A model generated the notes under the pieces. The model saw only the letters and a program-made list of their open reading frames with translations, made no database searches and had not been told where the DNA came from. The position numbers and the translations under genes were made by a program. Shown one piece after another: positions 2,285-28,400 of a stretch of 32,265 nucleotides of DNA (its first letter is position 1; every line of letters begins with the position of its first letter). The stretch comes from Faecalibacterium prausnitzii (lineage in GTDB: Bacteria > Bacillota > Clostridia > Oscillospirales > Ruminococcaceae). Location of the stretch: positions 1 through 32,265 of the forward strand of contig NZ_PXUP01000024.1 of the NCBI RefSeq assembly GCF_003324185.1. The letters are read 5' to 3'.

Positions 2285-2306
2285 CTTCGGGTCAATGTGG
2301 TCCGAG
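2285..2306. repeat. Intergenic palindrome, copy 1
   Basis: CTTCGGGTCA, ATG, TGGTCCGAG. One base after the stop codon (2308-2310) of the 67-residue gene. The most diverged clear copy. Confidence 0.7.
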
Positions 2307-2307
2307 G

Positions 2308-2511
2308 TCAGTAAGGACTGGAAAGGTACTTTTCTTTGGCATCCTCCACGCTGTTGAGGTCGAATACTTCATAAAGCTGCCCCACAACACGCCGTATATC
2401 CTTCTTTGAAAATCCGCAGTTCTCCATTGCCATAATGACATAACCACGGCAGGCGTCATTGCTCCATTCGTCCGGTTCCAAGCCGGGGATCATTCCAAAC
2501 GCATTTCCCAT
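2308..2511 (-). CDS. Small acidic protein of unknown function
   Basis: 67 residues from MGNAFGMIPG. The ATG at 2511 has AAAGGAG with 6 bases spacing, whereas the longer frame to 2604 has none. It is acidic with helical segments (EWSNDACRGYVIMAMENCGF, then DIRRVVGQLYEVFDLNSVEDAKE). I do not recognise a characterised family. It lies downstream of an unusually long non-coding gap (2512-3018) and ends one base before a palindrome copy. Confidence 0.65.
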   Translation of the reverse strand: MGNAFGMIPGLEPDEWSNDACRGYVIMAMENCGFSKKDIRRVVGQLYEVFDLNSVEDAKEKYLSSPY

Positions 2512-3018
2512 AAAATGCTCCTTTTTTGAAAAGATGGGGAGCCACACCGGATCGGTTGGCCTATCATCAGACAGCATTGCCGGGGGCTCCCCATAGGTTT
2601 TCACTTCATTTCAGACACACCGGACGGGCATAGGCTTCATGCCCCATAGTATTTCAACTCTCCCCATTCTGATGGCAAGGCGTTCTCATTGCCTGCGACG
2701 GCTCACGGCTTGCAAGACCGCTTCAACGCTCGGACTGTGACTAAACGCAAGTATCCGGGTTCTGCGCCTGTTCCGGTGGAGCCAGCCTTGCCCCACCTAT
2801 GGCATGGACCTGTTCGCTCGCTCAGTTTTACAAAGACTGTATTCTCTGAAATCCGAGGTCATGGCGGGTCTGTCACACAGCGCGTTCCCCTTCGTATCCG
2901 GGTGTCTTTTTATTCGATTTTCAATCTGCATGAGGCTTGTCTGAACCTCGGGCCATTGTGACCCGAAGTGTTTTGCCTCTCATAAGCCATTTCATTTTCC
3001 GGCCTAAATCGGTACGCC
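2512..3018 (-). other. 507-base gap, candidate structured RNA or group II intron remnant
   Basis: No gene with a ribosome site on either strand. Read on the minus strand it is rich in short stems, for example GGGCATGAAGCCTATGCCC near 2630-2650, and has long stretches without start-linked frames. GTGTGAC near 2873-2879 resembles the GUGYG 5' end of group II introns, but no reverse transcriptase frame and no domain V are visible, so an intact intron is ruled out. In an otherwise tightly packed element such a gap is exceptional. It contains palindrome copy 2 at its upstream edge. Confidence 0.4.
2947..2968. repeat. Intergenic palindrome, copy 2
   Basis: CTCGGGCCA, TTG, TGACCCGAAG. 50 bases after the sigma factor stop codon. 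Confidence 0.85.
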
Positions 3019-3441
3019 TTACAAAGAATTTTTCAAAATTTTTTCTAAGCGCCGCAGACCTCGCTCGATTGCGACACGAACTACTTTTTCATGGACGCCC
3101 TCTGCCCGGGCAATGTCCTGTTTGGTCATGCCGAGAATGAAATGAGCATAAATCCGTTTTGCCTGTTTGTCCGGCAAACTGGAAATCGCTGCGTGAAGCT
3201 CCTGCATGGTCACTTTCCGCTCATACAGTTCATGGGGAGATAAGGCAACAAAGACAGCTTCATGCTCCAGCCCGTCATCCCGATCAAGGGAATAGTAGGC
3301 TTTGTGGCGGTATGTACGCAGCCGGTAGGCAGCCTCTTTACGATCAAACTCTTTGAACATTTCTGCAACTTCTTCCGATACTTCCATGAAGCAATCTGAT
3401 GTATAGAATGGGTAATAGTCCCGCAAATTGATAATAGCCAT
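3019..3441 (-). CDS. Sigma-70 family (ECF-like) sigma factor of the element
   Basis: 140 residues starting MAIINLRDYY; ATG at 3441 follows GGAGG by 5 bases, so the longer frame to 3591 is not used. An N-terminal region of about 70 residues carries many charged residues. The C-terminal part (about 75-140) has the sigma region 4 helix-turn-helix pattern: LPDKQAKRIYAHFILGMT, then KQDIARAEGVHEKVVRVAI. Short sigma-like proteins of this kind are standard in Tn916/Tn1549-type elements, where they are thought to control transfer genes. Palindrome copies flank it (2947-2968 and 3515-3537). Confidence 0.85.
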   Translation of the reverse strand: MAIINLRDYYPFYTSDCFMEVSEEVAEMFKEFDRKEAAYRLRTYRHKAYYSLDRDDGLEHEAVFVALSPHELYERKVTMQELHAAISSLPDKQAKRIYAHFILGMTKQDIARAEGVHEKVVRVAIERGLRRLEKILKNSL

Positions 3442-3514
3442 ATTGACCTCCGTTTCGGTTGTTGGTTGACGAGTGACCGAAACGAAGGCGGCGGGGAGCG
3501 GCACCGGGGAATGA

Positions 3515-3537
3515 CTTCGGGCCAACATGACCCGAAG
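3515..3537. repeat. Intergenic palindrome, copy 3
   Basis: CTTCGGGCCA, ACA, TGACCCGAAG. Upstream of the sigma factor and the last copy before the palindrome-free cargo region. Confidence 0.9.
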
Positions 3538-3591
3538 CAGCCCCATAAGAACACAAAAGCGCCCGGGCGGCATGAAGCCACACGAACGCAT

Positions 3592-3903
3592 GAAGTTACA
3601 TATTCATTTATGTACTGTCTGATTTCACATTCATAACCAGACTGTCCCGGAGGGGGCGCTATGCTTTTTTTAATTGATGTAGGTCATGGGTACTATGAAA
3701 AGAGGCAAAAATAGACACGGCGGCAATCCTCCTTATATGCCGCCGTGGATTTACACGGTGTTAGGTCGTCGTTATTTTAAGGTAGACGAAAAGAAACGGC
3801 GGCTCTGAAAATCAAAGCCGCCGCTTCATAGGCGCGTGAAAATGTGTCTGCTGTACGACGGCTTTTTTTCTTTTGCCGTCGTCCGGCAGATTAACATATG
3901 AAA
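3592..3903. other. Cargo-backbone boundary gap with several hairpins
   Basis: No convincing gene. Three strong inverted repeats are visible: ACGGCGGCA/TGCCGCCGT (about 3717-3745), CGGCGGCT/AGCCGCCG (about 3796-3825) and ACGACGGC/GCCGTCGT around a T-rich loop (about 3856-3890), the last just after the permease stop and possibly ending its transcript. A 37-residue basic frame on the plus strand (3695-3808, MKRGKNRHGG) lacks a ribosome site and I do not call it. The gap marks the join of the AT-richer cargo to the GC-rich backbone. Confidence 0.45.
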
Positions 3904-5712
3904 CTATAATTCATTGATGGTTGCAGTAATCGACATATTGCGAATTCGTTTTGCCGGAGCATATACAGCTGCGATTGCCGCAATCGAGACAAACAGAAGA
4001 ATAACGCCCAAAGAGATAATTGGGAACTGCCACACAGCAGATGGAAAATGCCCTGCAATAAGGAAATCATACAGCGATTTGCTAAGCGGCAAGCCAATAG
4101 CACAACCAACAACGCACCCCAAAACAGCATAGGTGAATGCTTCACAGGCAATCATTTTCGTCATTTGCCGTTCATCCATTCCTACTGCCCGCATAGCTCC
4201 ATATTGCTTCATTCTGGCAGACACACTCATGGAAATGCTATTGACAATGTTCATTACCGTTACCAGTGCAATAATTGCCAAAAACGCATAAACACAGAAA
4301 ACAAAAGCCATATAAGTTCCCGTAGTGCGCTCGTCGCGTTTATCTTGAAAGCTATATGTTTGATCTACGGAATTCTGGATTGCCTGAACATTTTCGTCCG
4401 TAACATCTCCCGTTGTTTGTATCAGCACAAGAGAATAACCTTCCTCTCCTGTCAAACGGACAAATGTTTCATCAGAGGTAATCAATGTGAGCTTTCCATT
4501 TGTCAATCCATTCTCACTAAATGGGTCGTTTTTTAACAGTCCGGCTATGGTAAGGGTTTCATCCCCAATCTGAACAGTGTCACCGATTTTCCATGTGCTG
4601 TCCTGATCGGATGTTGCCAAAACAAAATTGCTGTCCCTAAAAACTTTGGACAGATCACTCCCCCTTTTCAAAGCACTGTCTTTTTTCAGACATTGTAAAT
4701 CAAAATCGTCATAAGAAATCAAATCGACTGTGCCAGAAAAGTTGGTGTCGTCGTTTAGTTTGGCAGAAACATCAAATACACTACGACGCCCGTAAACTTC
4801 CTTCACTCCATCCATTTCGCGGATGGTTGTAAGCAGTTCCCAAGGAATCGTATTACCGTCAGCACTTGCAATATCTATATCTGATGTGGCAGCCGACTGA
4901 GGAATCAGGTAATCCACAAAATCGACCATAATAGAAAAGCTCAAAAACAGGATGATGCTAAGTGCAAAAGAACCTGTCATCAGGAATAAATTTTTCTTCC
5001 CGGAGACCGCATGGCCGATACCGAGAAGGGCTTCAATCTTTCCGAATCCTGTATACTGGGAATGACGCATTGTTTTTCCGTGGTCTGCATTTCCAGACAC
5101 CGCTGTGATAGGAGATACCTTCGCGGCATGTTTCGCCGGAGCATTTGCGGCGATCAGTACAGTAATCAGTCCAACAAAGATACCGCAGGCAATGCCAAAA
5201 ATACTGATACCAAAGAGGGGAATATCAGAAAATTCTTCTCTGACTACAAAGCGCAGTACCGCACACAGCCCCCATGTTGTAACAACCCCTAAAATAAGAC
5301 CGATGGGTACAGCCGTTTTGCACCAGTTCAATGCCTCCAGACGAACAAACCGAATAATCTGCTGCTTACTCATACCAATGCAACGCATCATTCCAAAAAA
5401 TTTGGTTCTCTGGGCAACGCTACTGTTCATACTGCTGGAAATCATCAAAACGCCTGCAATCAAAATCAGCAGGAACAGAACAACCGCAACAGAAAGAAGG
5501 GTTTGCCCCATGGAACTGCCGAGCAAGTCTCCAATAGAGAAACTTCCATGCTTACCAACCAATCGGGCCTGTTCCATCCGAAAACCCATTTCTGCCATAC
5601 TGAATACTGCTGTTACCATAAACACAGCAAATACAATGCAAAGCAGCGTCATACGATTTTGTCGGCGATGAACTTTAGCGGAGATGGGAATAAGACTAAG
5701 ATAGCTTTTCAT
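3904..5712 (-). CDS. ABC transporter permease, double FtsX type
   Basis: 602 residues, integral membrane. The first transmembrane segment is at about 22-42, followed by an FtsX block (three helices about 72-190) containing the typical FFGMMRCIGMSKQQI cytoplasmic motif. A fifth helix lies at about 232-257, then an extracytoplasmic domain of about 190 residues, and a second FtsX block (three C-terminal helices) with the matching KQYGAMRAVGMDERQM motif. The ATG overlaps the stop codon of the ATPase gene (ATGA, 5709-5712) and has GGGAGG upstream, so the two are translationally coupled. With the adjacent ATPase it should form an exporter or membrane-extraction pump; in such neighbourhoods the usual substrates are antimicrobial peptides or lipids, which is inference here. 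It lacks the exact BceB layout, so I do not call it BceB. Confidence 0.88.
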   Translation of the reverse strand: MKSYLSLIPISAKVHRRQNRMTLLCIVFAVFMVTAVFSMAEMGFRMEQARLVGKHGSFSIGDLLGSSMGQTLLSVAVVLFLLILIAGVLMISSSMNSSVAQRTKFFGMMRCIGMSKQQIIRFVRLEALNWCKTAVPIGLILGVVTTWGLCAVLRFVVREEFSDIPLFGISIFGIACGIFVGLITVLIAANAPAKHAAKVSPITAVSGNADHGKTMRHSQYTGFGKIEALLGIGHAVSGKKNLFLMTGSFALSIILFLSFSIMVDFVDYLIPQSAATSDIDIASADGNTIPWELLTTIREMDGVKEVYGRRSVFDVSAKLNDDTNFSGTVDLISYDDFDLQCLKKDSALKRGSDLSKVFRDSNFVLATSDQDSTWKIGDTVQIGDETLTIAGLLKNDPFSENGLTNGKLTLITSDETFVRLTGEEGYSLVLIQTTGDVTDENVQAIQNSVDQTYSFQDKRDERTTGTYMAFVFCVYAFLAIIALVTVMNIVNSISMSVSARMKQYGAMRAVGMDERQMTKMIACEAFTYAVLGCVVGCAIGLPLSKSLYDFLIAGHFPSAVWQFPIISLGVILLFVSIAAIAAVYAPAKRIRNMSITATINEL

Positions 5713-6392
5713 TCACGGCACCTCCCAAAATCAGTCAAAGTACCATCCGATACCTGTAATACCCGGTCTGCCGTTTGCGCAATACTGCGGTTATGGGTAA
5801 TCATAATGATGGTCTGCTCGTATTTTTTCGATGTTTCTTTGAGCAATGCTATGACCTCACTGCTGTTTTGTGAGTCCAAATTTCCTGTTGGCTCGTCTGC
5901 CAGAATCAGAGAAGGACGGGTAATCAATGCGCGGCCAATCGCCACTCTCTGCTGTTGACCGCCGGAAAGCTGACTGGGTAAATGATTACGACGATCTTTC
6001 AAATTCAAAACCGTCAGCAGTTCCTCCAAATATCTCTTATCCGGCTTTTGATAATCCAACAACAGCGGAAAAATAATATTTTGTTCCACCGTCAACTCCG
6101 GGATAAGGTTAAACGCCTGAAAGATAAAGCCGATATTCCTCCGGCGGAAAACGGTCAGCTTTCGATCGTTCATGGCAAAAATGTCCTTGCCGTCAATCAG
6201 AACCTTGCCAGATGTTGGCGTGTCCAAAGCACCGATCATATTCAGCAGTGTACTTTTACCAGAACCGGATTCCCCGACGATTGCCACATACTCGCCCTTT
6301 GGAACAGAAAAGCTGACATCCTTTAATGCCTTGACAGCGGTTTCTCCGTTGCCATAGGTCTTACTGATATTTTTGACTTCTAATAAGTTCAT
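5709..6392 (-). CDS. ABC transporter ATP-binding protein (LolD/MacB/BceA class)
   Basis: 227 residues. Walker A GESGSGKST at 40-48, Q-loop FQAFNL at 91-96, signature LSGGQ at 142-146, Walker B LILADE at 162-167 with the DEPTGNLD form typical of the LolD/MacB/BceA group, and H-loop ITHN near residue 200. Cytoplasmic partner of the FtsX permease that follows and overlaps it by four bases. The start at 6392 has a modest GAGGTG site. The 112-base gap before it carries a paired TGTAGGCT operator and a hairpin leader, so expression is probably under the adjacent response regulator. Confidence 0.93.
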   Translation of the reverse strand: MNLLEVKNISKTYGNGETAVKALKDVSFSVPKGEYVAIVGESGSGKSTLLNMIGALDTPTSGKVLIDGKDIFAMNDRKLTVFRRRNIGFIFQAFNLIPELTVEQNIIFPLLLDYQKPDKRYLEELLTVLNLKDRRNHLPSQLSGGQQQRVAIGRALITRPSLILADEPTGNLDSQNSSEVIALLKETSKKYEQTIIMITHNRSIAQTADRVLQVSDGTLTDFGRCRE

Positions 6393-6426
6393 AGTGTAAA
6401 CACCTCTTTCTGAATGATTTTGCGAT

Positions 6427-6458
6427 ATAGGCAGGCTGTCTTTGTTTGTCCTGCCTAT
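6427..6458 (-). other. Leader hairpin before the exporter genes
   Basis: ATAGGCAGG and CCTGCCTAT are perfectly complementary across a 14-base loop, in the untranslated leader of the ATPase gene. No T-run follows, so it looks like an mRNA structure rather than a terminator. Confidence 0.5.
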
Positions 6459-6465
6459 GTGTGAG

Positions 6466-6509
6466 AGAATAGCACCTGAATCTTACTGTAAGCCTACAGC
6501 CAGCCTACA
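6466..6509 (-). promoter_or_regulatory. Operator and promoter of the exporter genes
   Basis: On the minus strand TGTAGGCT occurs twice (6502-6509 and 6491-6498) with an 11-base period, the arrangement usual for OmpR-family response regulators. A -10-like TATTCT (6466-6471) follows. The only -35-like hexamer (TTACAG) is at a poor 14-base spacing, consistent with activator dependence. The same octamer lies upstream of the regulator operon promoter (8473-8480). It overlaps the stop codon of the histidine kinase gene. Confidence 0.6.
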
Positions 6510-7542: not shown

Positions 7543-7550
7543 TCTGTACC

Positions 7551-8418: not shown

Positions 8419-8438
8419 TTCGCACCTCCACAGGATAT

Positions 8439-8480
8439 ATTATAGTTCTCTATCTCGAATAATACAAGTTAGAGCCTACA
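8439..8480 (-). promoter_or_regulatory. Promoter of the regulator operon with TGTAGGCT box
   Basis: Minus strand TTGTAT (8462-8467), 17 bases, TATAAT (8439-8444). A single TGTAGGCT octamer (8473-8480) lies directly upstream of the -35 hexamer, matching the paired octamers before the exporter genes. Suggests autoregulation. Confidence 0.65.
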
Positions 8481-8522
8481 CGGATGCGAAATAAAATACT
8501 ACTTAATGTAAAATCTCATTAC

Positions 8523-8947: not shown

Positions 8948-9043
8948 GCGCCATTTTAGGGGCTGCCGCTAAGTGGCAAGCAATGCCTCTGTGGCCACAA
9001 GTGGCACAAAGGCGGCTTGTTGGGGCTCGCCCCAAACCCGTAT

Positions 9044-9066
9044 CTTCGGGCCAACATGGCCCGAAG
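9044..9066. repeat. Intergenic palindrome, copy 4
   Basis: CTTCGGGCCA, ACA, TGGCCCGAAG. 34 bases after the relaxase stop codon; first copy after the palindrome-free cargo. Confidence 0.92.
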
Positions 9067-10568: not shown

Positions 10569-10590
10569 CTTCGGGCCAGTATGGCCCGAG
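10569..10590. repeat. Intergenic palindrome, copy 5
   Basis: CTTCGGGCCA, GTA, TGGCCCGAG. Five bases after the CD1845 stop codon. Confidence 0.9.
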
Positions 10591-10595
10591 GCTGC

Positions 10596-10886
10596 TTAAC
10601 TTGCCAGAAACCGGTACAGAGCGGATTTGCCTCCGTCCAGCGCCCAAAGAAGGGAGCCCGCCGCCGCTTGCAGTCCATACGGCGAAAGAAGGAAGGCAAG
10701 AAACAGAAATACAATCCCGCCTATGGGCGTCGGCGTGAAAAAGAGAGCGACACCCAGCACCGTCAGGATCACAGAGGCAATCGTCAGCAGGACGGCACAA
10801 ATATCAAATAGGAACACCAGCAGAGCCGCCAGAAGGGACAACGCTAAAGCAAAGGGAGCAACCAATATTTTCAGCAGTATCTTCAT
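10596..10886 (-). CDS. CD1845-family small membrane protein
   Basis: 96 residues from MKILLKIL (ATG at 10886, AGGAGG 8 bases upstream). Three strongly hydrophobic stretches fill most of the protein: LLKILVAPFALALSLL, FLFDICAVLLTIASVILTV and IGGIVFLFLAFLLSPYGL. The family occurs beside relaxases in clostridial conjugative elements; its role in transfer is not established. Transcribed from its own promoter (10922-10950), together with the relaxase gene. Confidence 0.8.
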   Translation of the reverse strand: MKILLKILVAPFALALSLLAALLVFLFDICAVLLTIASVILTVLGVALFFTPTPIGGIVFLFLAFLLSPYGLQAAAGSLLWALDGGKSALYRFLAS

Positions 10887-10921
10887 CTTCAAAACCTCCT
10901 TTATCTATCCTTCCTACCTCT

Positions 10922-10982: not shown

Positions 10983-11006
10983 CTTTTGGGTCATACTGGC
11001 CCGAAG
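10983..11006. repeat. Intergenic palindrome, copy 6
   Basis: CTTTTGGGTCA, TAC, TGGCCCGAAG. Between the MobC terminator and the CD1845 promoter; left arm diverged. Confidence 0.75.
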
Positions 11007-11597: not shown

Positions 11598-12188
11598 TTA
11601 TCGTTCCTCATGGTTTTTATGGTTTCGCTTCTGGCCGGGTTCCTTCGGGGGTTCCTGCCCTCTGGTTTCATCTTTGAGCCGGGCAGTAATGGATGGGCGC
11701 ACCCGGTCAGGATTGCCCGGTGCTGGTTTCAGCTCATAATCCTCCATCTGCTTTTCGGTCAGCGGCTTTGCGTAGGTCAGTTCGCCCCATGCCATCAGCC
11801 TGCCGTCTGCCACAGGACGCCGCCTGTCATCATCGTAGTTGACGATGGAAAGAGGCTGGTTATCCGGCGGCTTCGGGTAAGTTCCTATGTCCACGGGCCG
11901 CTGGGTGGAATAATAGCGGTAAACGCCCTCCGGTCCCAGCTCGGTATGCTTGACCGCCGCATGGTAAAACTGCTGATAGTCGTCCACCCGGCGGTCAAAG
12001 TCCCTCTGCGCCCACGCCTGACTGGTTCCATAGCGGCCCCAGTAGTAATCCCGATGGCCGTTTTCCCCCTCGGTAAACTGCCAGGTCACAAAGGGGCTCG
12101 GCGCTCCCGGATTATGCCCCAGCGCAAAGCCGTGTCCGGTTTCAAAGGTGGCAGCTTTCAAAATCACATATCCTTGTACTGTCTCCAA
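11598..12188 (-). CDS. Conserved element protein of unknown function
   Basis: 196 residues if the TTG at 12188 is the start (AAGGAGG 6 bases upstream); the longer frame to 12221 begins inside a palindrome and has no site. It begins ETVQGYVILKAATFETGHGF and continues with aromatic-rich segments (FVTWQFTEGENGHRDYYWG) and a proline- and charge-rich C-terminal tail. No catalytic motif or membrane segment is seen. I recall similar proteins in this element family but no function. Located between the VLP protein and the DUF4316-like gene in the transfer operon. Confidence 0.75.
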   Translation of the reverse strand: METVQGYVILKAATFETGHGFALGHNPGAPSPFVTWQFTEGENGHRDYYWGRYGTSQAWAQRDFDRRVDDYQQFYHAAVKHTELGPEGVYRYYSTQRPVDIGTYPKPPDNQPLSIVNYDDDRRRPVADGRLMAWGELTYAKPLTEKQMEDYELKPAPGNPDRVRPSITARLKDETRGQEPPKEPGQKRNHKNHEER

Positions 12189-12208
12189 GAGATTCCTCCT
12201 TTCTGTGC

Positions 12209-12230
12209 CTCGGGCCAACATGACCCGAAG
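12209..12230. repeat. Intergenic palindrome, copy 7
   Basis: CTCGGGCCA, ACA, TGACCCGAAG. Between the VLP gene and the following gene, 90 bases after the stop codon. Confidence 0.88.
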
Positions 12231-12722: not shown

Positions 12723-12914
12723 TTATGACTTCGGGCCACGATGGCCCGAAGGGCGGGGCTCCACGATCAGCGCCCGGAACTTCTTCCGGCACTGTTTTTT
12801 CTTTCCTTTGCACTCCTTGTAATAACGGCATCCCTTACAAGGGTCGTCATTGTCCCAGCCGGGGTGCGGTACTTCCTTCATCATTCGTTCAAAAGGGCTG
12901 CTTGTAAAATTCAT
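12723..12914 (-). CDS. Small cysteine-containing protein ending in the palindrome
   Basis: 63 residues from MNFTSSPFERMM (ATG at 12914, GGAGG 7 bases upstream; the ATG at 12920 overlaps the DUF4366 stop but is too close to the site). CKGCRYYKECKGKKKQC looks like a small metal site. The last residues, PSGHRGPKS, are encoded by palindrome copy 8. Function unknown; sits between DUF4366 and the VLP gene. Confidence 0.7.
   Translation of the reverse strand: MNFTSSPFERMMKEVPHPGWDNDDPCKGCRYYKECKGKKKQCRKKFRALIVEPRPSGHRGPKS
12729..12751. repeat. Palindrome copy 8, inside a reading frame
   Basis: CTTCGGGCCA, CGA, TGGCCCGAAG. Encodes SGHRGPK at the C-terminus of the 63-residue protein. Confidence 0.9.
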
Positions 12915-13564: not shown

Positions 13565-13817
13565 GGGCCGTGTCCTCCTTTTCGGGTGCCTCCGGCTTCG
13601 GGTCAGTATGGCCCGAAGCGGTAAGGCTGTTTTTGGGGTCATTCAGAAAAGCCATAAGCTGGGCGGGCGTCAGTTTGAGGGAGCGCACCGCCTGCACGAT
13701 CTGGCTGTTTTCTTCCTCCTGTTTCTGCTTTTCCAGCTCCCGGATTTTGGCCTGCCATTCGGCGGCCTTCTCCCGGGCTTTTTCCAGTTCCTTATCGAGC
13801 TTGTCGATCTTGTTCAT
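13551..13817 (-). CDS. DUF4315 protein
   Basis: 88 residues from MNKIDKLDKELEKARE (ATG at 13817, AAGGAG site). A coiled coil at about 1-38, then a short helical part (LKLTPAQLMAFLNDPKN). Palindrome copy 9 follows inside the frame and is read as ASGHTDPK, then an acidic tail. DUF4315 sits next to CD1108-type NlpC/P60 proteins and DUF4366 in this element family. Overlaps the next gene by 14 bases. Confidence 0.88.
   Translation of the reverse strand: MNKIDKLDKELEKAREKAAEWQAKIRELEKQKQEEENSQIVQAVRSLKLTPAQLMAFLNDPKNSLTASGHTDPKPEAPEKEDTAHEEN
13596..13618. repeat. Palindrome copy 9, inside DUF4315
   Basis: CTTCGGGTCA, GTA, TGGCCCGAAG. Encodes ASGHTDPK near the DUF4315 C-terminus. Confidence 0.9.
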
Positions 13818-13839: not shown

Positions 13840-15741
13840 TCACAAACGCCCGAAGGCATAGAAATGTGTCTGCCAGTAGCTTGAATTGATGTTTGCGTAT
13901 TGGATGGGCGAACCACAATGGAGCATCATCCCGTCGCCCACATAAATCCCCACATGGGACACAGGGCCGGGGCTGTCATAGGTTCCCGTGAAAAAGATAA
14001 TGTCGCCGGGCTTTGCCTCGGAGGGGGAAATGATAGCGCACTGGTTATAAATGCCCTGCGCCGTGGTACGGGGCAGGTTGTGGACGCCGCTGGCCGTGTA
14101 CACCCAGCAGACAAAGCCCGAACAGTCAAAGGAGGTGGACGGGCTGGAGCCGCCCCACACATAGGGCCAGCCGATGTACTTTGTGGCTTCTTCCATGAGC
14201 GCCGCAAAAGCCGGGTCATCCAGCGCCTCGCCGGGTATCTCATAGCTGGGGCCGGTATCTTCGCCGCCGTTGTAAATCCCTTCCCACAGATAGGGTTTGT
14301 TGCCTTTGAGCTGCTGCATAACGGTGTAGATTTCCCGCTGCTGTTCGTTAAGCCTCGGCAGGATCACGGCGGGCAGCGTCTTGTTTGTGAGGGTCACATT
14401 GAGAATGTAATACTCATAGGGGACTTCCTCGGTGGTGGTTTCCCCGGTCTCCGGGTCGGTGCTGGTTTCGGTGCGGTAGCGTATCTCGACTTCCTCCGTC
14501 AAGGTCAGCTCATACTGTGCCTCGAAGATCTCCCGCAGCTCGTCCTGCACCTGTTCCCGGAAATACACATGGTACTTTGCCGAGAAATAGGACGCCAGCT
14601 CATAGGGGTTATGGCCGATCTCGTCCACGGAATAGCGGTACTCGTCATAGCCGGGATGGGTGCTTTCGATGTTCGCTACCGTCTGTGCCAGCTCGTTTTC
14701 CAGTGCCGTGTAGTCCTCGTCCACCCCCAGCAGGTCCGTATCCTCCGAGGCGTAGGAGGTGCCGGATAACGCATTGGCAAGGCCGCTGCCAAGCGTGGGA
14801 AAGATAGAGCTTACCGCCGACACAAGAAAACAGAGCAGCAACAGCAGGAGCAGGACCAGCACCGCCACGGGATGACGGGTCACAAACTGCGCCGCCCGAC
14901 GGGTCGCAGTTCCCGAAGCGGCAGCGGTTTTCTTTGCGGCCTTTGCGCCCTGTTTTGCAGCCGCCTTTGCTTCTTTGGAATACCGGCGTTTCAGTTTCCA
15001 TTTCTGCTGCACACGGGAAAGCGGATTGCTGGCAAGTTCCGGGTGCTCGGAGGCCATCTTTTGAAAATCCACATTGGCCCGGGCTTTTATGTCCTTCCGT
15101 TCCCACTTTGCCACCTTCCGGGCTGGGTGTTCCCGCCAGCGGCGTTTGGCATAGCGGGTCAGTTTCCGGGCTCCGGCCTCTGCGGCCAGCTCGGATTTAT
15201 GGGCTCCTTCCACACCCACATTTTCATGCTCAACCTCGTGTATCTTGTTGTGGACATAGAACCACGCTTCTGTACGGGCTCCCCGGACTGCCTTTTTTGC
15301 AAGCCCCGGCGGCTTCTTCGCTGCCCGTTTTGCCTCGGTCTTGTCCAGTTTCTCCCGGGCCTTTCCCAGCTTTTCCCCGGCGTGTTCCGCTTTTGCCTGT
15401 GCTTTCTGGTACTTGTCCTTTTTGCTCCCGGCCTTCTCGGCGGAGCCCTCCGGCTCCTGTGCCTTGCCGGTATCCTGCGGCCCGCCCGCTTCATCTTCCT
15501 GCCTCATGCGGTCAGAGGGACGGCTTTTCCGGCTGTCCTCTTGAAACTTACCGCTTTTGGACTTCGGGCCATTGTGGCCCGAAGGACTGTCCTGCCCGGT
15601 ATCCTCGTCCTTAAACCGTAGACGTCGGGACGGTGCGGGGGAAGGTCCTTCCCGTTCTGCCGGTCCGGGGCGATTGTCCCCGGTATCCTCCGTCGGCCCC
15701 GGCCTTTGAAAATTCCGTTTGTCCGGTTTCTTTCCGATAAT
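13840..15741 (-). CDS. CD1108-family membrane protein with NlpC/P60 peptidoglycan hydrolase
   Basis: 555 residues from the ATG at 15507, or about 633 from an ATT at 15741 that has AAAGGAGG five bases upstream and is in frame with no stop between; I prefer the longer form although ATT is a rare start. Order: charged Lys/Ala-rich N-terminal cytoplasmic region (about 300 residues in the long form), one transmembrane helix (VAVLVLLLLLLLCFLV), an extracytoplasmic region, then a C-terminal NlpC/P60 domain with catalytic Cys in FDCSGFVCWVY and His in VSHVGIYVGDG. It should cut peptidoglycan to open a path for the transfer channel, like VirB1/Orf14. Palindrome copy 10 is read as PSGHNGPK in the N-terminal extension. 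Confidence 0.88.
   Translation of the reverse strand: MIGKKPDKRNFQRPGPTEDTGDNRPGPAEREGPSPAPSRRLRFKDEDTGQDSPSGHNGPKSKSGKFQEDSRKSRPSDRMRQEDEAGGPQDTGKAQEPEGSAEKAGSKKDKYQKAQAKAEHAGEKLGKAREKLDKTEAKRAAKKPPGLAKKAVRGARTEAWFYVHNKIHEVEHENVGVEGAHKSELAAEAGARKLTRYAKRRWREHPARKVAKWERKDIKARANVDFQKMASEHPELASNPLSRVQQKWKLKRRYSKEAKAAAKQGAKAAKKTAAASGTATRRAAQFVTRHPVAVLVLLLLLLLCFLVSAVSSIFPTLGSGLANALSGTSYASEDTDLLGVDEDYTALENELAQTVANIESTHPGYDEYRYSVDEIGHNPYELASYFSAKYHVYFREQVQDELREIFEAQYELTLTEEVEIRYRTETSTDPETGETTTEEVPYEYYILNVTLTNKTLPAVILPRLNEQQREIYTVMQQLKGNKPYLWEGIYNGGEDTGPSYEIPGEALDDPAFAALMEEATKYIGWPYVWGGSSPSTSFDCSGFVCWVYTASGVHNLPRTTAQGIYNQCAIISPSEAKPGDIIFFTGTYDSPGPVSHVGIYVGDGMMLHCGSPIQYANINSSYWQTHFYAFGRL
15562..15584. 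repeat. Palindrome copy 10, inside the CD1108 extension
   Basis: CTTCGGGCCA, TTG, TGGCCCGAAG. In frame, read PSGHNGPK, if the ATT start at 15741 is used. Confidence 0.9.
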
Positions 15742-15760
15742 GTATCCCTCCTTTCCAAAC

Positions 15761-15782
15761 CTCGGGCCATCATGGCCCGAAG
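15761..15782. repeat. Intergenic palindrome, copy 11
   Basis: CTCGGGCCA, TCA, TGGCCCGAAG. Four bases after the VirB4 stop and just before the ribosome site of CD1108. Confidence 0.92.
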
Positions 15783-18541: not shown

Positions 18542-18563
18542 CTTCGGGCCAGCATGGCCCGAG
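18542..18563. repeat. Intergenic palindrome, copy 12
   Basis: CTTCGGGCCA, GCA, TGGCCCGAG. One base after the stop of the following-upstream gene (18565). Confidence 0.92.
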
Positions 18564-18564
18564 G

Positions 18565-19884: not shown

Positions 19885-19907
19885 CTTCGGGTCAGCATGG
19901 CCCGAAG
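19885..19907. repeat. Intergenic palindrome, copy 14
   Basis: CTTCGGGTCA, GCA, TGGCCCGAAG. Four bases after the VirB6-like stop codon. Confidence 0.92.
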
Positions 19908-23415: not shown

Positions 23416-23483
23416 AAAACCTCCTTTCCGTCGGGGTTCCCGCTATCCGGGAGGCCCCCGTACAATCTCGGGGAACAGAAAAC

Positions 23484-23504
23484 CTCGGGCCAATGTGGCC
23501 CGAG
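23484..23504. repeat. Intergenic palindrome, copy 16
   Basis: CTCGGGCCA, ATG, TGGCCCGAG. Two bases after the stop codon at 23507. Confidence 0.9.
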
Positions 23505-23506
23505 GC

Positions 23507-24556
23507 TTACCGCTCGGCATCTCTGCCGGACGGAGCTTTCTTTTCCGGCTCCGTCTGGATTTTTTCGCCCTGTTCCCGCATGGTCTGCAAGATAGAGGGC
23601 TTCTTTTGAAGCTGGGAGGGCTTTTCGCCGGACAGCGGCTTGATACATTCCAGACGGTCAGCCGCCCGGATGGCGTTGTCCGTGAGCTGCCTCTGCCATA
23701 CGCCTACACTGGGAGCCCAGCGGAAACCGCTGCTTTTCAACTCGGCCCGGGTGTCCGCGTCAGGCTTTCCATCAAAGAATACCTGCAAGCGGTTGTCCTC
23801 CCGGTTCATCTCCACACGGCCCCCGTCGAACTCCCAGCCGGAAAACTCCCGCTGCGCCTGTTTGGAGAGCTGTTCGATACGCGTCTTTACCCGGCGGATC
23901 TCCGCATTGTTGTTGGTAAGCTGGTAGCTTTCAAAGGGCCTCGGGTCGCTCCGCCAGTTTGCCGCCATGCTTGCTTTCAGCTTTTCGATCTGGTCCGGCG
24001 ACAGCAGCGCACAGCCATCCAGCTTGCCATGCTTGCGGTAATAGGCGTTGACCTCCTTCATAATGAGCTGGGAGCGTTCCAGCCCGTCCAGCTTCTTCTG
24101 GAGCTTTTCAATGGCCGCCGGGTCATCGGCGCTGATCCCGCCCATGCCGGTACTGCGTATCTTATCCAGCAGCCCTTGAATATACCGCCATTCCTCCATG
24201 TTGCTGTCCCGGGCCCGGTTCTGTTTTTCCTTCTTTCCCACCGGGAAATTGGCAGGTCCGGCGATCATCACAGAGGGAACCCTTGCGTCAATGGCAAAGC
24301 CCTGGTTCATGTTTTCGGCCAGCTTGCGGGCGTAGGTGTCTAACAGATGGTCGATCTTCTCATGGTACATGGGGTCCACCCGGGATTTCTGCTGTTCCGC
24401 TATGGCGGCGGCCTTGTCCACCATTGCCCGGTATTCCGCCGTTGCGCTCCCTTCCTTGTAGTCGGAAAAGCTGTTCATTTCCTTTGCCCGGCGGGCGGCT
24501 CCTTCATTGATAGGGTAATAGTTGATGGTATGCACCTCCTTTATGCTTCGGGCCAT
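23507..24556 (-). CDS. Unrecognised helical transfer-operon protein
   Basis: Up to 349 residues. Mostly helical and charged, with a small alpha/beta motif near the C-terminus (RLQVFFDGKPDADTRAEL, then GFRWAPSVGVWQRQLT) that I recall from DUF3560-like and related mobile-element proteins. The start is uncertain: the only ATG (24556) lies inside palindrome copy 17 with no ribosome site, while AAAGGAGG lies 8 bases before an ATC at 24526 (INYYPINEGA). Compare the ATT start of the CD1108 gene. Function unknown. Confidence 0.78.
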   Translation of the reverse strand: MARSIKEVHTINYYPINEGAARRAKEMNSFSDYKEGSATAEYRAMVDKAAAIAEQQKSRVDPMYHEKIDHLLDTYARKLAENMNQGFAIDARVPSVMIAGPANFPVGKKEKQNRARDSNMEEWRYIQGLLDKIRSTGMGGISADDPAAIEKLQKKLDGLERSQLIMKEVNAYYRKHGKLDGCALLSPDQIEKLKASMAANWRSDPRPFESYQLTNNNAEIRRVKTRIEQLSKQAQREFSGWEFDGGRVEMNREDNRLQVFFDGKPDADTRAELKSSGFRWAPSVGVWQRQLTDNAIRAADRLECIKPLSGEKPSQLQKKPSILQTMREQGEKIQTEPEKKAPSGRDAER

Positions 24557-24568
24557 GCTGGCCCGAAG
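24546..24568. repeat. Intergenic palindrome, copy 17
   Basis: CTTCGGGCCA, TGC, TGGCCCGAAG. Two bases after the ArdA stop codon. Confidence 0.92.
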
Positions 24569-24570
24569 TC

Positions 24571-25284
24571 CTACCGTTCTTCATGGGAAGTCCCCGCCTT
24601 GTCCTTTTTCGGAGTGGGTGGGGCTTCTTGAAACCGTTTGAGTGCAGCGAGAATGGAGTGGACAGGCTCGGCCTTTTCAGGATAAGCAAATATCCGGTGT
24701 TCCGGCGGAATGTCCTGTGGCCCGTGGTAATACTCCTTGAAGCCCTCCGGGACTGCCGACACATACCCACCGGGAGCGAATACGCCGCCCTCGTTGATAC
24801 GCACATCCCGTCCGTATGCTTCATAATCGAAGTAGTTCTGAATGTGCTCCGGTATGTCGATGGTCCCAAGCTCGTCGGCGTACAGACGGCCCAGCCCTTC
24901 ATCATCAGAAATATCCGGGTAAAAGCGGTACAGGTCAAGGTTCTGCGTCAGGTTTATCAAATCCTTCACGCTCCGTGTGTGGTTTCCCAAGACAAGAGCG
25001 GCTTCAAAGGTTTCCAGTCCGCCCTTATCCCGTACTTCCAGCAGAGCGTGGCCCAGCTCGTTCAGCTCGTCGATGTTCTCACATTCGTAGAGATGATCGT
25101 AGAGCCCCAACACATCGCTGTCAAAGCTGGTAAAGAACACTTCGCTGTACCGTTTCCCATCTATCCCGATTTTGGCAAGGGCGGCCTGCAACTCCTGTGT
25201 CGTCGTGGGGAAATGTACCGTTGTCCCTACCTCGATCCCCATTAAGGGGTACAGGGCTGTATTGGTTATATAGGCTTCAAACAT
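24571..25284 (-). CDS. ardA: ArdA antirestriction protein
   Basis: 237 residues from MFEAYITNTALY (ATG at 25284, AGGAGG upstream). The N-terminal half carries the ArdA pattern (GTTVHFPTTTQELQAALAKIGI, then LYDHLYECENIDELNELGHAL). ArdA is a DNA mimic that blocks type I restriction enzymes when the element enters a new cell. The protein is acidic overall, as expected. The C-terminal Pro/Lys tail is an extension. Follows the methyltransferase gene after 4 bases, forming an anti-restriction pair. Confidence 0.9.
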   Translation of the reverse strand: MFEAYITNTALYPLMGIEVGTTVHFPTTTQELQAALAKIGIDGKRYSEVFFTSFDSDVLGLYDHLYECENIDELNELGHALLEVRDKGGLETFEAALVLGNHTRSVKDLINLTQNLDLYRFYPDISDDEGLGRLYADELGTIDIPEHIQNYFDYEAYGRDVRINEGGVFAPGGYVSAVPEGFKEYYHGPQDIPPEHRIFAYPEKAEPVHSILAALKRFQEAPPTPKKDKAGTSHEER

Positions 25285-25288
25285 GGGC

Positions 25289-26374
25289 TTATTCCTCCTT
25301 TCCGGCCCGGTCAGCCAGCACCTCATAGATCCCGGCCATAATGTAATCGGCACAAGGGAGGGCAATCGCGTTTCCCAGCGCCTTGTAGCGTTGCAGAGGC
25401 CGAATCTCCACGCCGTCCGCCCCGTACTTTGTCCAGCCCTCTGGCAGCCCCATCAGCCGTTCACTTTCTGTTTCCGTCAGAAAACGGATACAGCCGCCCT
25501 CCGGGTCGCCCTCATACCAGAAGGCGAAGGGCGTCACGTCACTGGCTAAAAGAGTGGGAAAAGGGTCAGTTGGTAATCCGAAGCTGTTTCGGAAGGCCGT
25601 TTCTTCCTGCCTTTTTGCCGCTCCCCGCATACGGAAGCACTGAAAGGGGTGGATGACTGGTATCTGCCGCCCTGTTTCAAAAGAAGCTGTTCGATCTCCT
25701 TCGGCGGCGGCCCGCCCGCCCTCTCCGCAAGGCGGAGGAAGTGGGAGCATTGGACGGGGCTTAAATAGTATGTCTGCGGCACGTCTGCCTCCAAAATCCG
25801 CCACGACGAAAATCCGCTGCCTTCGTGCCAGCCTTCGGGGGCCTGCCCAATACTGGGCGTCCATGAGCCGCCAGCACACATCAGGCGTTCCCCCTCGCAC
25901 CATTCCGGCGTTTCCCCATCTTCCCGAAGGAGGCATTGGAACTTCGGTGTCCGAGAAGGCGGATAAGACGGCTCTAAAGTCCATCCGGTCATTTGTAGAA
26001 AACGCTCCCATGACGTTTTCCCAAACAGCGATAGCTGGATATAGGTTATCAGTAGCATCCCTCATTTCCTGTATGATACGAAACGCCTGATAGAACAGGC
26101 TTGATTTTGCCCCGGCAAGGCCGGAGCGGTTGCCGATCAGAGAAAGGTTCTGACAGGGGGAACCGAAGGTTATCACATGGACCGGCGGGATTTTCCCGCC
26201 GTCCACCTTCGTAATATCCCCCAAATGCACCATGTCGGGAAAGTGCCTTTTGGTTATGGAGATGGGCGCTTTTTCAATCTCGCTGGCCCAGACCGGACGG
26301 ATACCGCACCGGGAAGCAGCCAGAGGGAACACGCCAATCCCGTCGAAAAGGCTCCCCAGCTTAATGTCCGGCAT
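25289..26374 (-). CDS. DNA cytosine-5 methyltransferase
   Basis: 361 residues. Motif I LGSLFDGIGVFPLAA, motif IV GSPCQNLS with catalytic Cys74, motif VI WENVMGA with Glu119, motif VIII RRQRIFVV, and motif X-like RYKALGNAIALP near the C-terminus. The target-recognition region lies about 200-280. No restriction endonuclease gene is adjacent, so it is an orphan enzyme that probably protects the element from host restriction. ATG at 26374 overlaps the DUF7768 gene by 14 bases and has only a weak site, implying coupled translation. Confidence 0.93.
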   Translation of the reverse strand: MPDIKLGSLFDGIGVFPLAASRCGIRPVWASEIEKAPISITKRHFPDMVHLGDITKVDGGKIPPVHVITFGSPCQNLSLIGNRSGLAGAKSSLFYQAFRIIQEMRDATDNLYPAIAVWENVMGAFSTNDRMDFRAVLSAFSDTEVPMPPSGRWGNAGMVRGGTPDVCWRLMDAQYWAGPRRLARRQRIFVVADFGGRRAADILFKPRPMLPLPPPCGEGGRAAAEGDRTASFETGRQIPVIHPFQCFRMRGAAKRQEETAFRNSFGLPTDPFPTLLASDVTPFAFWYEGDPEGGCIRFLTETESERLMGLPEGWTKYGADGVEIRPLQRYKALGNAIALPCADYIMAGIYEVLADRAGKEE

Positions 26375-26717
26375 GGCCCGGGGTGCCGTGTCCCTTCACG
26401 GCAAGCACCCCTTCCAGCGTTGTCGCCGCAATGCCCAGCCGTCCGGCAACCGCAATATCGTTTTTCACATCCTCGTCCACAGCGCTGCCGCAGACGATCA
26501 GGGTGTGGGAGCGCCGCAGCATATCCCGGCGCATATCGATCCCGGCCTTATGTTCCTCGGGAACGCTGTCATTCAAAAACAGCGGCAGATACAAGAGCGG
26601 GCAGATCGGGGAAAAGCCCGCCTCATAAGCAAGGCGGCAGTAGTGGGTCGCCAGCTCCATATCAACATCCGGCTCGCCGCTCCATGCGGCGGTCAGGTAT
26701 GCTAAAGGTCGTTTCAT
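26361..26717 (-). CDS. DUF7768 / DUF4406-like small protein
   Basis: 118 residues from MKRPLAYLTAAWSG (ATG at 26717, GGAGG upstream). Rossmann-like nucleoside deoxyribosyltransferase-related pattern: N-terminal LAYLTAAW, central CPLLYLPLFLND and ADEHKAGIDM-like region (EEHKAGIDMRRDML), then LIVCGSAVDEDVKNDIAVAGRLGI. These proteins lie beside DNA methylases in clostridial elements; activity unproven. The last codons PGHAG fall where a palindrome would be expected and look like a decayed copy. Confidence 0.78.
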   Translation of the reverse strand: MKRPLAYLTAAWSGEPDVDMELATHYCRLAYEAGFSPICPLLYLPLFLNDSVPEEHKAGIDMRRDMLRRSHTLIVCGSAVDEDVKNDIAVAGRLGIAATTLEGVLAVKGHGTPGHAGH

Positions 26718-26802
26718 TGGTTGAACCTCCATTTCTGTTTTGGTTTAGGGAAAAGCAAGGTATCGCCCAACCCCTCCGCCCCTTCCCCCGGGAAGGGGAA
26801 CG

Positions 26803-26968
26803 GCTCTGGAGAATTTATATCCCCGTCGCTTGATCGGGAAAAAGCATAACCGGGAGAAATCCGTCAAGGGTGCCTCTGGCACCGCCTGCGGCAGCGCTGC
26901 CCTTGACTGATTTTCCCGGCTATGCTACGGAATAACTGGCGACGGGGAATAATTTATATCTCCAGAGC
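26803..26968. repeat. Nested 166-base inverted repeat, candidate oriT or structured RNA
   Basis: Outer arms: GCTCTGGAGA with TCCAGAGC side, and CCCCGTCGC with GCGACGGGG. Inner arms: AGCATAACCGGGAGAAATC (26842-26861) with the reverse complement GATTTTCCCGGCTATGCT (26910-26927), continuing into CGTCAAGGG with CCCTTGACTG. A GC-rich apex has two small hairpins (GTGCCTCTGGCAC and CGCCTGCGGCAGCG). Unpaired internal loops of 12-13 bases separate the arms. It occupies the only sizeable gap (26718-27026) in the right half of the element, between the DUF7768 and ParB-like genes, flanked by two more GC hairpins. Confidence 0.75.
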
Positions 26969-26997
26969 TTCGGGGCGCGGGGCAGAGCCCCGCAATC

Positions 26998-27019
26998 CTC
27001 GGGCCACGTTGACCCGAAG
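26998..27019. repeat. Intergenic palindrome, copy 18
   Basis: CTCGGGCCA, CGT, TGACCCGAAG. Seven bases after the ParB-like stop codon. Confidence 0.9.
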
Positions 27020-27026
27020 TTTCGGC

Positions 27027-28400
27027 TTACTTTTCCTGTTCGTTTTTCTTCTCCGGCTTTTCGTGTTCCTTCTGCTGGCCCTTCCAGTCGTCCAGCAGCT
27101 TGATAATCTGGTCCTTCATTTCCCTCGGCGTAGTTTCCTTGCCGAAATACTTGCTCAGTTCCGCACCTGTCAAAATCACTTTGTCTACCTCCTTTTTGTC
27201 CTCCATCATAATGCCGTCGATCACGTCCCCGTTGAGTAGCTTCTTTTCGTCCAACTCACGCATACGCTTTGCCTGCGCCTGTGAAGGCGAGGACTGCTGG
27301 CTGTCAATGGCGACGGCGATATAGTTCTGGTTCTTCTTGCCGATATAGGAAAGCTCCACCGCCGTAGTAAAACCCAGCTTTTTTTCATCCATCAGCTTCA
27401 TCAGGTCTGGAACCAGCTCATTGAGACGGATATACCGCTGCACCTGCTTGACGGCCATCTTGTTCCGCTCGGCCACGATCTCGTTGGAGCGTTTACCTGC
27501 GTCCTTCGGGTCAATCTGGCCCGAAGTACGGGAGCCCTGGTGCTTGATGGCTTCAAGCTGCATTTTTAAGGCTTTGGCCCGCTCACTGGGGAGGATTTCT
27601 TCACGCTGGTTCAGATTGTCCTCCACCATCTGTGTGATGGCTTCATCATCTGTCAGGTTTCGGACGATACAGGGCATATCCGCATATCCGGCAAGCTCAC
27701 TGGCTTTCTGGCGGCGGTGGCCGGACACGATCTCATAGCCGCCATCCTCACGGGGACGGACGATAGCGGGCTGGGTCACGCCCTTGTCCTTGACGCTGGA
27801 CACCATAGCCCGCATTTCTTCATCATCCCGGACTTCAAAGGGATGGTTCTTGAAGGCGTGGAGTTCGTTCAGCTTGATATAGACGATCTGCTCCTTGCCC
27901 CGGCGTGGAGCATCCTTTGGCTTTTCGGGTCCTTTCGGAGCGGGAGCGGCCTGTATCGTTGGAGCCGTTTTTTTCTCCGGTTCCTTTTTGACCGCCTTTT
28001 CCGGTTTCTGTGCGGGAGCTTTGGACTTCGGGGCTGCGTCCTTGTCCTTATTTGCTTTCGGGGGACGGCCCCGGCGCTTCGGCTGTTCCGGCTCTTTGGG
28101 TTTTTCCTCTGCTTTTTTCGGAGCCTCCGGCTGCTTTTCCGGTTTCTCCGCTTTTGCCGGGTCAGGCTTTTCCACGCCGGGAGCTGCCGCCCGTTCCTCG
28201 ACTTTCTTTTCCTTCATAATTTCAGCGAAGTTATAGACAGAAACCTGTGGGTTCTTTACCTCTGGTTCCGTCTTTTTTTCCGGCTTCGGGGAAACGGAAA
28301 CCTTCCCCGGCTCTTTTGGGGGAGCGGGAGGCGTTTCCTTGCCCGGCCCGCTATCCGTTACCGGCTGTTCCGGCGTTTTTGTGGTTTTATCATCTGCCAT
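27027..28400 (-). CDS. ParB-like protein with long charged N-terminus
   Basis: 457 residues from the second ATG (28400, AGGAGG 9 bases upstream; the ATG at 28406 is too close). Residues 1-170 are a low-complexity Pro/Lys/Glu region. The ParB N-terminal domain follows (about 175-275) with the box SGHRRQKA and the segment MVEDNLNQREEILPSERAKA, then a helix-turn-helix region (QVQRYIRLNELVPDL). No ParA partner is found in the element. Palindrome copy 19 lies in the coding region between the two domains and is read TSGQIDPK. It is the first gene from the right end and probably the start of the long transfer operon. Function as a partition protein or as a regulator is open. Confidence 0.88.
   Translation of the reverse strand: MADDKTTKTPEQPVTDSGPGKETPPAPPKEPGKVSVSPKPEKKTEPEVKNPQVSVYNFAEIMKEKKVEERAAAPGVEKPDPAKAEKPEKQPEAPKKAEEKPKEPEQPKRRGRPPKANKDKDAAPKSKAPAQKPEKAVKKEPEKKTAPTIQAAPAPKGPEKPKDAPRRGKEQIVYIKLNELHAFKNHPFEVRDDEEMRAMVSSVKDKGVTQPAIVRPREDGGYEIVSGHRRQKASELAGYADMPCIVRNLTDDEAITQMVEDNLNQREEILPSERAKALKMQLEAIKHQGSRTSGQIDPKDAGKRSNEIVAERNKMAVKQVQRYIRLNELVPDLMKLMDEKKLGFTTAVELSYIGKKNQNYIAVAIDSQQSSPSQAQAKRMRELDEKKLLNGDVIDGIMMEDKKEVDKVILTGAELSKYFGKETTPREMKDQIIKLLDDWKGQQKEHEKPEKKNEQEK
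27504..27526. repeat. Palindrome copy 19, inside the ParB-like gene
   Basis: CTTCGGGTCA, ATC, TGGCCCGAAG. Read TSGQIDPK in frame. ParB relatives often have a TSxQ motif here, so the site may be native coding sequence or an insertion. Confidence 0.88.

Follow-up and report, generated by a model that had tools for sequence, protein, structure and literature searches.

Dispersed palindromes as probable recognition sites of a ParB-family protein encoded by a mobile element of Faecalibacterium prausnitzii

ParB-family proteins with many dispersed sites are already known, KorB, Noc and the IncC ParB among them, and relatives such as KorB and Noc load at their sites and spread along DNA. In this study, we examine a palindrome that occurs 19 times in a 32,265-nucleotide stretch of Faecalibacterium prausnitzii DNA (contig NZ_PXUP01000024.1; hereafter the window), within what we take to be a Tn1549-like integrative and conjugative element (ICE). 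We consider it likely, with good confidence, that the palindromes are parS- or operator-like recognition sites of the ICE's own ParB-family protein, for which a mode of base reading and a role as a clamp are proposed below. Selection at the DNA level, ParB as the reader, a residue-to-base code and a concerted change of site variants, or dialects, are supported by computation on the sequences.

The closest described systems are compared here from parts of the cited publications. KorB of RK2, which acts at OB sites, is likewise a ParB-fold protein of a conjugative element, and the predicted model of the present protein matches KorB structures. KorB slides from OB sites to distal promoters up to 1.5 kb away (PMC11790492). 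The dispersed sites of the present elements (19 in the window, 2-19 per locus in 81 loci, many cut by contig ends) are putative operators; unlike in KorB/OB, half of the intergenic sites abut stop codons, and the gene of the reader itself contains a site that co-evolves with the protein. Noc of Bacillus subtilis is a ParB relative with scattered binding sites (NBS) whose specificity is set by a few helix-turn-helix residues, but its sites are on the chromosome (PMC4331003, PMC7383237), and a membrane-binding N-terminus in the present protein would be hypothetical. The IncC ParB has many dispersed inverted repeats on a conjugative element, 12-14 parS, and SGI1 carries two parS mimics, one near its repA operon promoter, which resembles the mobilisable elements described below (PMC10954446). 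IncC differs in keeping its ParA and in a ParB whose helix-turn-helix is described near the N-terminus, and dialects and a site inside parB, both features of the present family, are absent from the part of the IncC description used here (PMC10954446). The stoperators of cluster A mycobacteriophages are similar in that more than 20 repressor sites occupy promoter regions and short intergenic spaces, with immunity specificity that varies among relatives, and dissimilar in being asymmetric, orientation-dependent 13-mers bound by a monomeric repressor (PMC9283540). Finally, BisD of ICEclc is an ICE ParB-type protein described as using cytidine triphosphate (CTP) for gene regulation, but it activates promoters together with BisC, and the passages drawn on describe no dispersed palindromes (PMC7423338, PMC12704722).

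A literature search, with preprints and most subscription papers outside its scope, found no ParB site inside the parB frame that covaries with the reading helix, no residue-to-base ParB code read from natural variation, and no concerted replacement of an element's many sites as the code changes. The system makes the evolution of DNA-binding specificity and the separation of co-resident mobile elements directly testable in gut Firmicutes, and offers a way to tell from sequence which ICE a given mobilisable element may respond to.

The palindromes and their dialects

The original prediction, made from the window alone, proposed 19 palindromes placed after the genes of the element. All 19 are present: a scan with the 23-bp pattern CYTCGGGYCANNNTGRCCCGARG, allowing at most 3 mismatches, gave 19 matches in the window and 0 in 100 dinucleotide shuffles. 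Six of the proposed starts shift by one base in the frame of the pattern (to 2946, 10984, 12208, 15760, 23483 and 26997). The copies are listed without strand; open reading frame is abbreviated ORF.

2285-2307, copy 1: 1 mismatch; 0 nt past the stop codon of ORF 2308-2604
2946-2968, copy 2
3515-3537, copy 3: close to the 5' end of ORF 3019-3591 (sigma region 4)
9044-9066, copy 4: after the relaxase gene
10569-10591, copy 5: 4 nt past the stop codon of ORF 10596-10892
10984-11006, copy 6: 2 mismatches; after MobC/NikA
12208-12230, copy 7: between the Cys_rich_VLP and DarA_C genes
12729-12751, copy 8: inside a short recurrent ORF
13596-13618, copy 9: close to the 3' end of a recurrent short ORF of family f5
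15562-15584, copy 10: inside a short recurrent ORF
15760-15782, copy 11: 4 nt past the VirB4 stop codon; junction filled in all four dialects
18542-18564, copy 12: 0 nt past the DUF7007 stop codon
19205-19227, copy 13: 1 mismatch; 0 nt past the stop codon of the SpoVG protein
19885-19907, copy 14: 4 nt past the TrbL stop codon
21102-21124, copy 15: 0 nt past the VirD4 stop codon
23483-23505, copy 16: 1 nt past the stop codon of ORF 23507-24556
24546-24568, copy 17: 2 nt past the ArdA stop codon
26997-27019, copy 18: 7 nt past the ParB stop codon
27504-27526, copy 19: inside the ParB gene, over linker codons TSGQIDPK, the place where other ParBs have their own palindromes

By these coordinates ten copies do begin 0-7 bases past a minus-strand stop codon, as had been stated (2285, 10569, 15760, 18542, 19205, 19885, 21102, 23483, 24546 and 26997). 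Placement after genes holds for most copies but not for the one at 27504, inside the ParB-like gene 27027-28406, nor for those at 12729, 13596 and 15562, which lie within short ORFs, near their 3' ends; these ORFs recur in related loci. The scan found no copy among the cargo genes at about 3.9-8.2 kb of the window. The strict core CGGGYCANNNTGRCCCGA occurs at 16 places in the element's own genome, all on this contig, as compared to 1 for the backward pattern, and the looser CGGGYCANNNTGRCCCG occurs at 19 places, three of them off this contig (one on contig C7 and two on C76). The motif is thus not frequent in the host genome, a possibility that had been raised against its significance. Confinement of the core to the element and conservation of many junctions also set the palindromes apart from the mobile or chromosomally scattered repeats known as repetitive extragenic palindromes (REP), bacterial interspersed mosaic elements (BIME) and miniature inverted-repeat transposable elements (MITE).

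Relatives were collected by a VirB4 search; of 185 encoding loci, the best 80, at 66-100% identity, were retained. Dispersed 23-bp palindromes were found in 80 of 80, at 2 to 18 each, on stretches that often end at contig ends. Together with the window, these 81 loci hold 750 sites (2-19 per locus), and the same DNA reversed holds 0; a chance origin was rejected by the shuffles and the reversed-sequence controls. The median spacing over the 81 loci is 1,368 bp, with 96% of 669 gaps at or below 3 kb, and 278 of the 571 sites outside genes start 0-10 nt past a stop codon. No dispersed palindrome set of this kind was seen in 20 loci with VirB4 at most 63% identical.

The sites fall into four dialects, and one dialect is common to all copies of an element. 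Dialect A (arm CYTCGGGYCA) occurs in 32 loci, the window included, dialect B (CYTYGGGACA) in 44, dialect C (CYTCTGGYCA) in 4 and dialect D (CYTCTGGACA) in 1. Junctions were compared for gene families present in at least 8 loci, by tiling genes on the transcript strand, which left 3 of the 750 sites without an upstream gene. The junction after VirB4 is occupied in 25 A, 44 B, 4 C and 1 D loci, and the one after VirD4 in 18, 19, 1 and 1, respectively; those after TrbL, relaxase, MobC, SpoVG, ArdA and ParB are also occupied across dialects. Other positions are filled in a single dialect only, namely those following DUF7007 and o349 in A and those in PrgI and f12 in B; gene content or order may differ there. 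The original prediction had named random sequence in the corresponding gaps of relatives as evidence against it; the gaps of sister dialects instead carry the shifted palindrome. On a VirB4 tree built by a quick method, dialects track descent (5 label changes, with a minimum of 4). Because they follow VirB4 descent, the clade holds few independent dialect events, and independent support for a code therefore comes from ParBs less than 50% identical rather than from the clade dialects.

In many dialect B copies one arm is TCGAGACA or TTGAGACA instead of TYGGGACA, and the altered arm almost always has the same orientation with respect to transcription. The locus L149 (L, C and G numbers denote loci, contigs and genomes of this study) carries a different palindrome family, CGGAACCAGTGTRGTTCCG, at 11841, 12729 and 13486, and there is only one ParB-type site on that element. 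Outside the VirB4 clade, the scanned loci hold only ParB-internal copies, copies in mobilisable elements and, next to a long-type ParB fragment, one site in L054. Viral contigs hold one element copy in five pieces and 11 single sites; among these 11 contigs, one protein each was scanned for L013, L021 and L026. The single sites of L013, L024 and L026 are of the form CTTCGGGCCAANTTGGCCCGAAG, with a BRO-N gene nearby in L026 and an AraC-type gene in L013.

The palindrome inside parB and a proposed residue-to-base code

The inferred reader and its parts are as follows.

27027-28406, minus strand: ParB-family protein of 459 amino acids, from Pfam and PDB matches
27417-27491, minus strand: ParB helix-turn-helix, residues 306-330, with predicted base-reading residues R306, N308, V319 and K320 (also Q323 and R324)
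27912-28406, minus strand: ParB N-terminal low-complexity tail, residues 1-165, with AT-hook-like RGRPPK; typical of multi-site ParBs

The protein has a Pfam ParB_N match (2.5e-19) followed by a helix-turn-helix and resembles PDB entries of Spo0J, ParB, Noc and KorB both by profile and by fold, which places it in the ParB/Noc/KorB superfamily. Its family motif is GHRR, as compared to GERR in aligned chromosomal ParBs, with the RR kept. Copy 19 lies 12 bp before the codon of residue 306, the first predicted DNA-reading codon.

Most related genes carry a palindrome at this position. Leaving out ORFs below 200 codons and merging duplicate C-termini took the set from 158 to 148 ParB ORFs, of which 95 had a linker palindrome beyond synonymous-codon expectation (p<=0.01); a control segment of the same genes, in the ParB_N domain, reached this level in 1 of 146. 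The linker score averaged 8.2, as compared to 3.4 when the linker's synonymous codons were redrawn; in these genes the palindrome is thus maintained as DNA sequence within a reading frame. The linker palindromes are centred mostly 16-24 codons before residue 320, and their variable bases differ among ParBs. L148 and L149, which have no dispersed sites, each carry one generalised palindrome in the DNA covered, and it lies inside parB at the same linker.

Covariation was computed on the 101 of 148 ParBs with a linker palindrome score of at least 7 at the expected place (effective number 49.6), leaving out the others, among them the ParBs of dialects B, C and D. Outside the palindrome's own codons, mutual information ranked residue 320, then 319, highest for arm bases 2 and 3, residue 308 for base 4 and residue 306 for base 5, and the same columns came first of 254 in 3,887 ParB pairs less than 50% identical. 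In such distant pairs, arm base 2 agreed in 96% of the 163 that share residues 319 and 320, as compared to 24% of the 3724 that do not; identity at residue 306 went with the same arm base 5 in 84% of 540 pairs, as compared to 20% of 2756. At residue 306, arginine pairs with G (32 of 34), glutamate with C (7 of 7) and leucine or asparagine with T (10 of 10); at residues 319-320, RN pairs with CC (16 of 17) and YK with GA (5 of 5). In the structural model (model number = residue minus 2), the covarying residues open the predicted recognition helix and the helix preceding it. Residues 308, 319 and 324 presumably correspond to Q162, R173 and N178 in Caulobacter numbering, as we placed them on a HMMER alignment to Spo0J. 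These three contact parS, and R173 is one of four residues that set ParB/Noc specificity, in the part of the source cited (PMC7383237).

The four dialects form a two-by-two grid of this code, with arginine or leucine at 306 and VK or YK at 319-320. The B ParB combines YK with R306 for GGGACA, and the D ParB combines YK with L306 for TGGACA. A prediction for dialect C, set beforehand as VK with a non-arginine residue 306, held for the one ParB found in the L114 genome: this protein carries L306 and VK, and its gene is flanked by dialect C sites. All 21 long ParBs compared (for long and short ParBs see below) agree with the sites in or beside their genes, L302 with one mixed-type flanking site; 17 of the 21 C-termini were new and four had been seen before (L301, identical to L143, and L295, L298 and L306). 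In sum, the earlier suggestion that the palindromes are sites for a protein, possibly ParB-like, that binds all along the element is strongly supported computationally by the linker palindromes, the covariation and the dialect C prediction.

Short ParBs (about 210-365 amino acids) are usually single-site, and long ones (about 400-570 amino acids) have a low-complexity, disordered tail and many sites; L297, at 398 amino acids, was grouped with the short ones in the agreement count. For 88 of the 101 linker-palindrome ParBs one palindrome copy was seen in the DNA covered, and in 27 of the 88 cases the locus measures 15 kb or more. A ParA gene adjoins 62 of 105 short ParBs and 0 of 26 long ParBs with upstream sequence, a count that leaves out L013, L054 and L145, as well as 3 short and 11 long ParBs with too little upstream sequence. 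No ParA match was found in the window or in any of the 81 multi-site loci, which do not span whole elements. Thus the long ParBs depart from the parABS arrangement, in which ParA is encoded with ParB. Six proteins encoded upstream of long ParBs gave five Pfam matches (ThiC, glycosyltransferase, M56/M23 peptidase, a primase domain and DUF5057), none of them ParA. On this basis ParB seems to stand first in its operon. An AT-hook-like RGRP is present in 27 of 52 long ParBs (some of the 52 being one gene twice) and 1 of 114 short ones, which weakens the AT-hook as their defining mark.

Proposed mechanism and competing explanations

The palindromes are very probably read by the ParB-family protein that the element itself encodes (27027-28406), as its sequence and those of its relatives suggest. 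A symmetric ParB dimer would read the sites on double-stranded DNA, residues 319 and 320, at the start of the recognition helix, reading the inner variable bases and residues 306 and 308 the outer ones. The element's ParB would be expected to bind CTTCGGGCCANNNTGGCCCGAAG, and the ParBs of dialects A-D to prefer their own sites. In the wider Tn1549-like family, ParB often belongs to a ParA-ParB pair whose one site is embedded in parB just before the helix-turn-helix, so that reader and site pass on together. In the present lineage, with no adjacent ParA, a long disordered tail and sites at many gene junctions, ParB may load at each site as a clamp and coat the transfer operon. Such coating could give element-wide autoregulation or silencing, KorB-like or Noc-like, and the chances that element-wide regulation is the outcome of ParB binding seem to us about evenly balanced, with partition, roadblocks and other roles dividing the remainder. 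We hold with somewhat less assurance, and as a tentative view, that the palindrome is a lock inside the key's own gene: a cognate site in the linker before the reading helix would let site and reader change together, private, fast-evolving dialects would tell co-resident elements apart, in one lineage a ParA-free ParB would have made the site an element-wide self-mark, and small mobilisable elements, with sites of two dialects side by side, would be bilingual eavesdroppers.

Several observations weigh against the ParB reading. The code rests on covariation, which among the element's proteins was computed on ParB columns only, and residue 308 is a narrow best for arm base 4 (0.255 vs 0.247). 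The significance threshold for a linker palindrome is missed by 53 of 148 ParBs, and none of the scored B, C or D ParBs has such a palindrome. Several genes of dialects B and D carry their internal copy farther upstream (L120 at 886, L143 at 2147, and L284-L288), and other B genes have none. A tblastn match to ParB is present in 30 of 80 loci, many of which end before ParB. The dialect C prediction was testable in 1 of 4 C loci, as no ParB was found in the L125 and L127 genomes and none of dialect C in the L128 genome, and dialect D rests on one gene, since L301 is identical to L143, the only D locus. Absence of an adjacent ParA is shared by 43 of 105 short ParBs, and CTP turnover may differ in ParBs of the GHRR type.

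An unlikely but serious alternative is partition, in which the sites form a dispersed centromere and the orphan ParB uses a ParA of the host or of another element, or acts alone, so that each daughter cell retains the excised circle. The short relatives, often ParA-ParB pairs with a site in parB, are consistent with it, and so are the IncC plasmids with their 12-14 dispersed parS, a system that SGI1 exploits for its partition (PMC10954446, in the part cited), which also count against the ParB-based regulation favoured here. The lack of ParA in the 81 multi-site loci and beside the 26 long ParBs argues the other way, although the loci are partial and a ParA elsewhere on the element is possible.

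Equally improbable, in our estimate, are elongation roadblocks, in which bound sites halt RNA polymerase between genes in the manner of the mycobacteriophage L5 stoperators. The close spacing of nearly half the intergenic sites to stop codons fits such a role, as do the short intergenic spaces occupied by L5 stoperators in the part of their description cited (PMC9283540). Stoperators are, however, asymmetric and oriented with transcription, whereas the present sites are palindromic and have variants at positions 2, 4 and 8 in both orientations; in dialect B, position 4 is asymmetric in most copies, either way round (C-A 134 and T-G 125 of 375). Position 6 of dialect B is an exception, its orientation bias (A-C 53 vs G-T 1) being unlike random orientation and also breaking RNA pairing. 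Roadblocks would not need copies inside genes.

That another protein of the element, SpoVG-LPD26, DUF7007, the cytosine methylase or the sigma factor, reads the sites is very doubtful. All four are encoded in the window, and the window SpoVG has a tblastn match in 59 of 80 palindrome loci, as compared to 30 of 80 for ParB, which is cut by locus ends. Against this, DUF7007 is matched in 26, sigma in 16 and the methylase in 10 of 80 loci, and the covarying columns lie in the ParB helix-turn-helix, in an analysis that covers ParB only.

Still less credit is due to RNA hairpins that stabilise or process mRNA 3' ends, suggested at the outset by the placement between a stop codon and the next ribosome site. 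Selection for a hairpin keeps pairing, tolerates G·U and avoids A·C, but on the transcript strand the 750 sites have 358 A·C and 311 G·U cells (115 and 111 distinct). Because A·C mismatches are as common as G·U, there is no sign of RNA-hairpin selection, and the hairpin reading was rejected by this strand-asymmetry test; copies inside coding sequence and variable bases that covary with a DNA-binding protein point the same way. In the minus-strand RNA of the window, one or more A·C mismatches occur in 9 of 19 copies, not in about five as first estimated. The least probable reading, a mobile cassette or REP/MITE-like repeat inserting after genes, was proposed on the strength of many near-identical copies and is rejected by the many junctions filled in more than one dialect, by the single dialect of each element's copies and by the restricted set of copies outside the VirB4 clade.

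Mobilisable elements and the surrounding genome

Sites of the same kind occur on a small mobilisable element that encodes an XRE regulator, Cys_rich_VLP, RepA_N and Mob_Pre, where they lie upstream of the Cys_rich_VLP-RepA_N-Mob genes. A scan of these loci gave 15 site matches, as compared to 1 in the control, and no ParB match was found in them. Ten copies share a Mob_Pre at 83% identity or more; a dialect B-type site is present in 8 of these 10, and in 4 it forms part of a tandem D+B pair 26 bp apart (L165:1328-1376, which is the element of L313, and L324, L327 and L329), with single sites in L314, L315, L325 and L333; L316 and L336 have no site within the 1.5 kb covered. Where Mob_Pre is less similar, no site was seen in L334 (78%) or L328 (73%), whereas a single perfect B-type palindrome lies close to the locus end in L335 (60%). 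In four carrier genomes, 7 of 11 dialect B matches lie in mobilisable elements, and no dispersed dialect B set was seen. The mobilisable element is possibly a bilingual hitch-hiker that uses dialects D and B of the ICEs.

Contig C18, which begins with the window, belongs to a 3.03 Mb genome. The ICE genes of the window are all on the minus strand. They encode a serine recombinase (400-1944), a sigma-like ORF, relaxase, MobC, DarA_C, Cys_rich_VLP, NlpC/P60, VirB4, PrgI, SpoVG, TrbL, VirD4, ArdA, a C5 methylase, DUF7768 and the ParB-like protein. A second relaxase gene at 30564-31952, past the ParB end of the element, is 43% identical to the relaxase of the ICE copy in genome G005 and is probably part of another mobile element. 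In the leader of the ParB gene (28410-28530, minus strand), two inverted repeats can be picked out by eye, the second being GGGGCT...AGCCCC followed by TTTTTT; by eye, this leader repeat resembles an intrinsic-terminator-like attenuator just upstream of the transfer operon. The window's genome (G000) holds six ParB genes, on C18, C29, C5, C16, C42 and C8 (L166, L223-L226 and L272), with five palindrome dialects, and those on C29 and C5, which agree in dialect, may be copies of one element.

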